A stretch of 59,825 nt of DNA from Candidatus Saccharimonadota bacterium (lineage in GTDB: Bacteria; Patescibacteriota; Saccharimonadia; Saccharimonadales; AQU-01). The position numbers and the translations under genes are program-made. The notes under the pieces were generated by a model. It saw only the letters and a program-made list of their open reading frames with translations, had not been told where the DNA came from and ran no database searches. Positions 51,370 through 52,962 of this stretch are shown in pieces (position 1 is the first letter of the stretch; each line of letters begins with the position of its first letter). Where the stretch lies: contig JAHBAU020000003.1 of NCBI GenBank assembly GCA_018499905.2, positions 1-59,825 of the forward strand, in the 5' to 3' direction.

Positions 51370-51454
51370 GCGCGGGTGGCGAAATTGGTAGACGCACTAG
51401 CCTTAGGAGCTAGCGGGGCAACCCATGAAGGTTCAAGTCCTTTCCCGCGCACCA
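51370..51454 (+). tRNA. tRNA-Leu (anticodon UAG)
   Basis: 85 nt with encoded CCA. The 7-bp acceptor stem GCGCGGG pairs with CCCGCGC (51444-51450). The anticodon arm CTAGC-CTTAGGA-GCTAG gives anticodon TAG, which reads CUN leucine codons. The long variable arm (class II tRNA) and the T-loop TTCAAGT are present. TACATT at 51356-51361, preceded by TG, is 8 nt upstream, so transcription may begin at the mature 5' end. Confidence 0.96.
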
Positions 51455-51491
51455 AAACAACTAAGCGACCTATGGGTCGTTTTGTTGTTTT
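51455..51491 (+). terminator. Terminator after tRNA-Leu
   Basis: The inner stem CGACC/GGTCG (loop TATG) is continued by outer arms AAAACAAC/GTTGTTTT; the outer left arm begins at 51454, the last base of the tRNA. The right arm supplies a T-rich tail. Confidence 0.8.
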
Positions 51492-51494
51492 GTA

Positions 51495-51623
51495 GCCGGA
51501 GGACTTGAACCGGAGGCGATGACACCTTTTGGTGTCTGAGTTTTCCGCGCTTGGCCGCCTTGCCGTTGGCGTTCACGCCAACGTTTGGCAGGCGCATGAT
51601 AACGCAAGTCCTTTCCCGCGCAC
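51495..51623. other. tRNA debris: inverted T-arm fragment and direct repeat of the tRNA-Leu 3' end
   Basis: CAAGTCCTTTCCCGCGCAC (19 bp) at 51605-51623 repeats the end of tRNA-Leu (51434-51452) exactly. Between them, the minus strand carries GGTTCAAGTCCT (same T-arm sequence as the tRNA), a variable-arm-like hairpin GACACC-AAAA-GGTGTC, and further upstream a strong GTTGGCG/CGCCAAC hairpin. No complete tRNA can be folded on the minus strand. The block looks like remains of tRNA genes or of integrations into the tRNA 3' end. The rest of the gap to 51719 is AT-rich with a TATAAT at 51697-51702. Confidence 0.6.
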
Positions 51624-51719: not shown

Positions 51720-51935
51720 ATGCTTAATAATGAAGTAAAAGCCAGTCATATAGTAGTTGTTGATTCACTTGGTGCTGTTGCTGGTGCATTGGTTGGTATG
51801 GTTGCTGATGTTCTGTTGCCGGGTAGCACACAAGAATATCCAATCCCAAATACTCCAAGAGAGCTAATCGCCACATTCTTGGGTGCTATTGCTGGTGCAG
51901 TAATAACGCACAAAAATGTAGCTCGTAATCTCTAG
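51720..51935 (+). CDS. Small membrane protein, 71 aa
   Basis: Two hydrophobic glycine-rich segments (IVVVDSLGAVAGALVGMVADVLL and ELIATFLGAIAGAVIT) are separated by a short polar loop. No family is recognised; glycine spacing is reminiscent of pore- or zipper-type small membrane proteins. TATAAT (51697-51702) and GGAAG (51709-51713) precede the ATG. It follows the tRNA debris directly and may be part of a decayed acquired segment. Confidence 0.55.
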   Translation: MLNNEVKASHIVVVDSLGAVAGALVGMVADVLLPGSTQEYPIPNTPRELIATFLGAIAGAVITHKNVARNL

Positions 51936-52019
51936 CGCTAAACCAACTTGCCGATATCTAGTTAGAATTGTTTTGTTTTGGCTTGTGTCAAAAATTGTTA
52001 AATCGTATATTGATTGATT

Positions 52020-52685
52020 ATGGGAAGAGCGAGCTTACCTGAAGCACGATGGATAGATGTAGATGTGGCGGCTGTATTTCCCAAGATCCGTGAAGGTGTA
52101 CCTGTAGGATATGGTAATGATTACGAAGACTTAGTTCCTCATATGTTTCTTGACTACGATTTCGCAGAAGGTCCTCAAGCGGCACTACTGAGCGGCTGCA
52201 AGCCGTTCATAGAAGGTGTCGTGCATGATTTCCAAGAGCAGATGGGGTGTGATGCTGATGGAATTCGCAAACTAGGCATCCACCATTTAGAGCCAGGTAC
52301 AGACTATAATTCGCAAACTTGGCACCGAGATCGGCTATTTCCTGGAGAGGTTTTGTATGTTGCCGTGGATGGGCAGCCAACAGAGGCTGCACACGGCCCT
52401 GACAGGTTTTGGTTTAACAAGCTCCCTTACGCTGTTCCGATTAATGGTCCGACGAATTATTTAGTATCTCATGGTTACTTAGAAGTTGTTTCGGGAGCCG
52501 CAGATCAAGCAATAGCCATGACCTCGGGAGTCGTTCACCGAGCCGGGGGTATGGATGAAGGATCGCGCGTTGTTATATCAGCTTCAGTACACAATCGTGC
52601 ATACGCTCGAGAGGAACTCATGAATTCAATTTGGGATGGTCGCGAACTCAGACGAAAAGTGCGTCACGATCCATACGGCATCTAA
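52020..52685 (+). CDS. ORFan resembling a 2-oxoglutarate/Fe(II) dioxygenase fold
   Basis: 221 residues. W101-H102-R103-D104 supplies an HxD pair, and H173 with R183 (SGVVHRAGGMDEGSRVVISASV) completes the H-x-D...H...R pattern of double-stranded beta-helix dioxygenases that bind iron and 2-oxoglutarate. This is inference from the motif order. TATATT (52006-52011) with TTGTGT 17 bp upstream lies 8 nt before ATG 52020, so the TTG at 52014 is rejected as the start. Confidence 0.65.
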   Translation: MGRASLPEARWIDVDVAAVFPKIREGVPVGYGNDYEDLVPHMFLDYDFAEGPQAALLSGCKPFIEGVVHDFQEQMGCDADGIRKLGIHHLEPGTDYNSQTWHRDRLFPGEVLYVAVDGQPTEAAHGPDRFWFNKLPYAVPINGPTNYLVSHGYLEVVSGAADQAIAMTSGVVHRAGGMDEGSRVVISASVHNRAYAREELMNSIWDGRELRRKVRHDPYGI

Positions 52686-52728
52686 AAAGTGACGTACGCA
52701 AGGGCGAGAGCGTGCTAGAATTATGTGC

Positions 52729-52962
52729 ATGAAACCAAATAGGGTCGAGTTCGAGCCGCCGCTACCGCCTTCCGAAGACTGGGGCGCGTTCGTTGCGGAA
52801 GTCAGCAGTCTACCTATGCCGACAGATGCTGAACTAGACCAACTTCCGGCATTTGTTGGGCAAGCAAGAGACCTATTTCCGGAAGGAGTAGAATTGCACC
52901 TTGCCAAGCAGCGTCCTCCATATGACGGTACGCCCCTAGTGCATACGCGAATTCTTTCCTGA
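52729..52962 (+). CDS. Hypothetical protein, 77 aa
   Basis: An acidic, proline-rich small soluble protein (EFEPPLPPSEDWGAF, FPEGVELHLAKQRPPYDG) without recognised family. An extended -10 TGCTAGAAT (hexamer 52716-52721) is 7 nt before ATG 52729. An in-frame ATG at 52723 is only 1 nt after the box and is rejected. It ends one base before the convergent membrane-protein gene. Confidence 0.5.
   Translation: MKPNRVEFEPPLPPSEDWGAFVAEVSSLPMPTDAELDQLPAFVGQARDLFPEGVELHLAKQRPPYDGTPLVHTRILS

Follow-up and report, generated by a model that had tools for sequence, protein, structure and literature searches.

A small structured-RNA insertion beside tRNA-Leu(UAG) in a Saccharimonadota genome, probably one copy of a protein-less element family that lands in tRNA-gene loops

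The window, meaning the whole analysed stretch of 59,825 nucleotides, belongs to a Candidatus Saccharimonadota genome of 1.09 Mb in 48 contigs (GenBank assembly GCA_018499905.2, contig JAHBAU020000003.1), and the named relatives of this lineage that carry the element family described here are Saccharibacteria. The features at issue (Table 1) begin with an intact tRNA-Leu(UAG) gene whose 3'-end sequence, CAAGTCCTTTCCCGCGCAC, recurs exactly 171 nt further on, start to start, as an earlier reading made from the sequence alone had stated; the repeat extends to 27 nt at 89%, and by our own calculation (about 6e4 position pairs in 350 bp multiplied by 4^-19) the chance of a 19-nt repeat is about 1e-7. 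The second copy comprises the T-loop from nt 56 onward, the T-stem and the 3' strand of the acceptor, and has lost the CCA. The tRNA-like fragments that the sequence-only reading had noticed between the repeats are real, and include a 12-nt segment, here called the guide, that is perfectly complementary to the T-arm and spans the insertion point. Overlooked in that reading were the terminator-like palindrome, which has 18-nt arms, a 4-nt loop and a T-rich 3' arm and lies in a region (51455-51499) that folds with z = -4.0 in RNA fold statistics, the folded core of about 100 nt, and the recurrence of the unit throughout the genome. Scanning the window with Rfam 15 (gathering score or E < 1) returned the tRNA itself as the sole match. 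Three small ORFs lie outside the repeats, between the element and hisS (51720-52962), with no above-cut-off Pfam match and none in PHROGs; the 71-aa ORF shows a below-cut-off resemblance to glycine-zipper proteins, and the other two are without a Pfam family.

Table 1. Features of the tRNA-Leu(UAG) locus, in window coordinates.
Feature	Coordinates	Strand	Basis
Intact tRNA-Leu(UAG), encoded CCA	51370..51454	+	ARAGORN; Rfam RF00005, 58.2 bits
19-nt repeat, copy 1 (within the tRNA, from the 3' part of the T-loop to the end of the acceptor)	51434..51452	+	exact repeat
Terminator-like palindrome between tRNA and element	51453..51492	+	inverted repeat; equivalents after tRNAs in relatives
Guide, AGGACTTGAACC	51500..51511	+	12-nt perfect reverse complement of own-tRNA T-arm (51430-51441)
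E-b core (GG flank, hp2, GAGTTTTCC..GCTTGGCC motif, hp3, 3' flank AAGTCC)	51515..51611	+	covariance model R2
hp2 stem-loop, GACACC-TTTT-GGTGTC	51521..51536	+	hp2 covariation in the E-b set
E-b signature motif, GAGTTTTCCGCGCTTGGCC	51538..51556	+	pattern with up to 1 mismatch
hp3 stem-loop, CGTTGGCG-TTCA-CGCCAACG	51564..51583	+	minimum-energy fold
19-nt repeat, copy 2 (3' flank of the insertion)	51605..51623	+	exact repeat; equivalent 3' flanks in relatives

When the tRNA and its downstream DNA were searched against 119 genomes of the same order, matches extended beyond the tRNA in several other families. At these loci, downstream of tRNA-Leu genes of different anticodons, the palindrome, an antisense T-loop (GACTTGAACC) and hairpins are followed by a copy of the tRNA 3' end, and some of the loci are tandem. 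Six copies of the form here called E-a, aligned by sequence alone, made up the seed of model R1, in which three hairpins (hp2, hp3 and hp4) carry compensatory changes in 19 of 32 pairs. The element (E) in its E-a form is a structured RNA of about 100 nt. Across 105 distinct copies, whose alignment to R1 is biased towards the model structure and which show the same as the sequence-only seed, standard pairs occupy 96.4% of pair cells, both-sided changes are found in 29 of the 32 pairs, 581 compensatory cells compare with 128 +/- 8 after shuffling, and covariation scores 0.545, versus 0.164 for shuffled and at most 0.097 for slid controls. Because G·U outnumbers A·C by 186 to 29 among pairs read on the tRNA-sense strand, an RNA of that strand is the most likely object of selection. 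Comparative analysis thus demonstrates that the E-a stems covary with G·U on this strand, so that the element, by this evidence, acts as an RNA. Three loci (L157, L158 and L037) carry a longer form of E whose middle domain is enlarged (CCGGAAGCCCGG .. GAGCTGAGGCGGGGTCGC).

Model R1 gave no match in the window at E <= 1. The signature GAGTTTTCCNNGCTTGGCC, allowing at most one mismatch, occurs at 18 sites in 11 of the 119 genomes (a reversed control pattern occurs once), nearly all of them, wherever the contig extends over the surroundings, in the tRNA-downstream layout; in 14 sequences of this second form, E-b, hp2 covaries with a score of 0.761 versus 0.237 +/- 0.044 in shuffles, and a hairpin at the hp3 position is kept among relatives while its sequence is not. 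A second covariance model, R2, was built from 11 E-b copies of other genomes only, with all own-genome sequence excluded. It detects the window copy at E = 4.1e-9 when the window is scanned, where the second-best match has 0.87, and at 7e-8 when the genome is scanned, so that on sequence grounds the window copy is a member of subfamily E-b. The same model finds two further E-b copies in the own genome, and the window element lies downstream of and on the same strand as its tRNA, with a guide complementary to the T-arm. The window copy is diverged, with R1 missing it, only GG kept in its 5' flank and the CCA lost, and the region 51493-51623 folds as well on the minus strand (z = -3.9) as on the plus strand (z = -3.8); it may therefore be a decaying copy. 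E-a and E-b, which have in common a GG-YGA start, the place of hp2, the guide and the target, are likely to be homologous, a judgement that rests on shared hp2, layout and target rather than on a joint alignment.

Within 300 nt of a tRNA lie 88 of the 105 distinct E-a copies, where 2.6% would be expected from G036, a complete single-contig relative of 909,550 bp in which 13 of 35 tRNA genes have an E-a match at this distance; 87 of the 88 share the strand of the neighbouring tRNA, the adjoining tRNAs represent 16 isotypes, and the other 17 copies have no detected tRNA within that range. Alignment of the flanks of 84 copies to the neighbouring tRNA placed the insertion point in the T-loop for 71 and in the D-arm region for 11, and almost every T-loop insertion follows nt 53 exactly and replaces nt 54-55; the flanks mostly match the tRNA at 6-8 of 8 nt, and at two loci (L208 and L199) the anticodon arm is interrupted. 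Typically E interrupts a partial extra tRNA copy, which is mostly incomplete and belongs to the unit in nearly all copies examined, and next to it is an intact tRNA of that kind. Downstream of the intact tRNA the order is terminator, guide, T-stem fragment, E and a 3' flank that often reaches the CCA, often with a second terminator, and upstream of it the order is the 5' part of the tRNA, E, a 3' flank of 7-11 nt, the guide and the intact tRNA. The guide thus lies 5' of E in tRNA-downstream copies and 3' of E in tRNA-upstream copies, and from this anatomy we infer that a single fold underlies both layouts, each a circular permutation of the other. In both, the guide complements the target in its uninterrupted form: the mean exact complement is 8.1 nt for the own target, as against 5.5 nt when other isotypes are used and 5.0 nt when the spacers are shuffled (p ~ 1e-12), and the own tRNA is matched better than other isotypes in 76 of 84 copies, with at least 9 exact nt in 35 of the 84 guides and shorter or imperfect complements in the remainder.

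Several further observations were made at these loci and in related genomes. The sole E-a copy antisense to its neighbouring tRNA lies beside a tRNA-Phe (L217, 7381-7482, in a locus given in reverse-complement orientation). At L218 and L173, Rfam and ARAGORN recognised nothing in the DNA that E-a interrupts, and rRNA, tmRNA or RNase P were accordingly set aside as targets there. A third, different insertion type, E-c, occurs at L187, L210, L215 and L226 and downstream of tRNA-Phe, tRNA-Asp and tRNA-Glu of G036, enters the T-loop further 3' (GGTTCG^..^ATCCC) and ends in GGAGGAGCGA..GCGATAT. In three relatives (L024 in G001, L029 in G028 and L032 in G075) the tRNA-Leu fragments that follow tRNA-Leu(UAG), the locus of the window copy, have about 40 nt inserted in their T-loop. 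In the own genome a repeat, GACGCTTCGCTCGTGACTACATAAATGTCCAYCRGGGCATTTAT, precedes the copied T-arms after tRNA-Arg(CCT) and tRNA-Pro(CGG) (L035 and L158). In the complete genome (G036:C1) ARAGORN finds neither tRNA-Ile(GAT) nor tRNA-Ala(UGC), and one of its tRNA-Leu predictions, at 837931-838481, includes a 454-nt intron.

On the anatomy of the family, the 19-bp window repeat is read as the tRNA-derived 3' flank of an insertion, and the window probably holds (at a rough probability of 0.8) one E-b copy of an element family of Saccharibacteria whose members are small structured RNAs, encode no protein and land in loops of tRNA gene copies. Matches to R1 occur in 64 of the 119 genomes of the order, with 0-33 copies per genome and 11 in the window's own genome, and are absent at E <= 0.01 from the other 55; a phylum-wide sample yielded E-a in 8 of 287 genomes, all of the same order. 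The exact E-a pattern, sought in 84,980 GTDB species genomes, was met on 48 contigs, nearly all from Saccharibacteria or unnamed MAGs, with one match in a MAG labelled Parcubacteria, a label that may be wrong. At the rsmD/tRNA-Leu(UAG)/hisS locus, where the sequence-only reading had suggested comparing relatives for insertions bounded by the repeat, and had held that a repeat at the same spacing in all of them would point to a structural role, no such uniform spacing is seen: the 3'-end repeat is present in 7 of 25 loci at several spacings, and the site is empty in G111, G091 and G071, with hisS 20, 22 and 74 nt downstream. One locus (L224) has elements that are 98.9% identical in the D-loop and T-loop of copies of a single tRNA-Glu; the nearest relative of a copy lies in the same genome in 26 cases versus 2.4 expected; two elements share one pseudo-tRNA at L208; and in the own genome (G000:C42:15725-15893, L158) one E-a element is nested in the stem of hp4 of a second element, whose opposite stem strand acts there as the target complement. 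As read from their sequences, these copies demonstrate recent dispersal within genomes. Such data bear on the best surviving alternative, an unlikely one, in which E is a non-mobile family of functional small RNAs, host regulatory or structural molecules that use tRNA neighbourhoods for expression and processing and spread slowly by duplication or gene conversion between tRNA loci. Such a gene family would accord with the strong selection on structure seen on the tRNA-sense strand, with recurrent terminators, with the intact tRNA beside most copies and with the lack of any mobility enzyme that tracks E. However, the many genomes without E-a, the variable copy number, the nesting in other copies, the pairing of two in one pseudo-tRNA and the near-identical copies at different target points are typical of a spreading element.

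E could also be a degenerate family of self-splicing introns, group I- or II-like or of some unknown kind, that enters tRNA loops by reverse splicing with the guide serving as an internal guide or exon-binding sequence. The exact sense-orientation insertion into exposed RNA loops, the twintron-like nesting and the pairing of the guide to both flanks would suit it, yet the Rfam scans of the loci yielded no matching family and no intron family, nt 54-55 of the T-loop are replaced rather than kept, and because the interrupted tRNA copies are mostly incomplete, splicing would not yield a tRNA. Reverse transcriptase (RVT_1) occurs in only 20 of the 119 genomes, unrelated to E, and is absent from the E-rich G079, G072, G076, G099, G084, G068 and G007. 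An intron origin is therefore rather improbable, and spread driven by reverse transcriptase in the current genomes was rejected on the same rarity and absences. Virus-borne spread was likewise rejected, as 2.9 million viral contigs contain no E-a and the one E-b motif match among them is a chance match inside an open frame.

The sequence-only reading had taken the repeat as a possible attL/attR scar of an integrase-borne element at the tRNA-Leu 3' end that was later excised or collapsed. Bordering T-loop sequence is classic for an integrase target, and what stands of that proposal is an insertion at the tRNA 3' end, bordered by a direct repeat of that end and present or absent among relatives; the attribution to the remnant of a larger, excised or collapsed integrase element does not stand. 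The supposed remnant is itself a conserved unit of 150-190 bp (171 bp in the window) that encodes a folded, covarying RNA, adjoins 16 isotypes and reaches 33 copies per genome. An integrase search in E-bearing genomes, suggested by the same reading, showed that gene number does not follow copies: nearly all genomes have one XerD-like recombinase whatever their E copy number, the E-rich G079, G072, G076, G099 and G007 have a single one just as genomes without E do, and that of the own genome lies on another contig than the window. No protein gene recurs near E, the ORFs around 57 loci being ordinary neighbours or frames across tRNA/E repeats. In family copies the second T-loop is interrupted by E and does not form an intact att core. 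On the interrupted core, the recombinase counts and the lack of a linked gene, an att scar was rejected as the main explanation, and with the absence of E-a from viral contigs it is very improbable. If the tRNA had been duplicated in tandem and the second tRNA-Leu copy had decayed to its 3' end, this would account for the tRNA-derived second repeat and for the partial tRNA copy in nearly all units examined, but such a history leaves unexplained both the covariation and the conserved core between guide and 3' flank, common to unrelated tRNAs, and is thereby refuted as a full explanation and the least probable of all.

The favoured reading, a structured-RNA family inserted in tRNA loops, allows the outline of a possible mechanism. 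The element would be transcribed like a small tRNA-flanked RNA gene, from the pseudo-tRNA or from its own promoter, and would end at a terminator beyond the 3' flank; pairing among the guide and the two flanks would make the element project as a multi-helix junction. Because no recombinase, reverse transcriptase or neighbouring gene tracks E, the candidate routes by which new copies may enter a tRNA loop are recombination through T-arm homology or a trans factor that works with an intermediate of RNA or single-stranded DNA, and local duplication would then restore a working tRNA after insertion. More tentatively, and at somewhat less than even odds, E could represent a new class of RNA-based mobile element, in which a small protein-less structured RNA uses a guide complementary to its target to recognise and enter exposed loops of tRNA transcripts or genes, and becomes fixed along with a tRNA copy that has been repaired. 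Neither Rfam 15 nor the open-access literature searched describes such elements, and within that range the family is previously undescribed. If these readings are correct, a bacterial order of tiny genomes carries an unnoticed class of structured-RNA elements that invades the loops of its own tRNA genes, which would offer a test case for protein-less or trans-mobilised RNA elements and would show how tRNA genes remain functional under invasion; a covariance model would be ready for annotating many genomes in which such regions at present resemble tRNA pseudogenes or scars left by phages.

Among known systems, the integrase att sites of prophages and integrative elements at tRNA 3' ends resemble E in their T-loop/acceptor target, in the bordering repeat of the tRNA end and in keeping an intact tRNA. 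However, E is without an integrase, is a unit of about 170 bp with a conserved RNA fold, adjoins many tRNAs per genome, has an interrupted target core, and also uses D-arm and anticodon sites. Rickettsia palindromic elements and REP-, ERIC- or MITE-type repeats are, as E is, short, protein-less, interspersed, palindromic and foldable; neither exact tRNA-loop insertion with a target-complementary cis guide nor the E fold is known for them. Introns have been reported in tRNAs of CPR bacteria, including cultured Saccharibacteria (PMC8694215), and are like E in being insertions in tRNA genes. They are annotated as introns of single tRNAs, whereas E occupies extra, mostly incomplete tRNA copies and has no intron-model match. 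Insertions in the rRNA genes of Saccharibacteria, 64 of 66 of them no longer than 250 bp and without intron or homing-endonuclease features, have also been described (PMC11270868), in a paper whose main text makes no mention of tRNA. These differ from E in residing in rRNA rather than tRNA; they belong to the same lineage, are likewise short, protein-less and placed in structured-RNA genes, and a relationship with E is possible.
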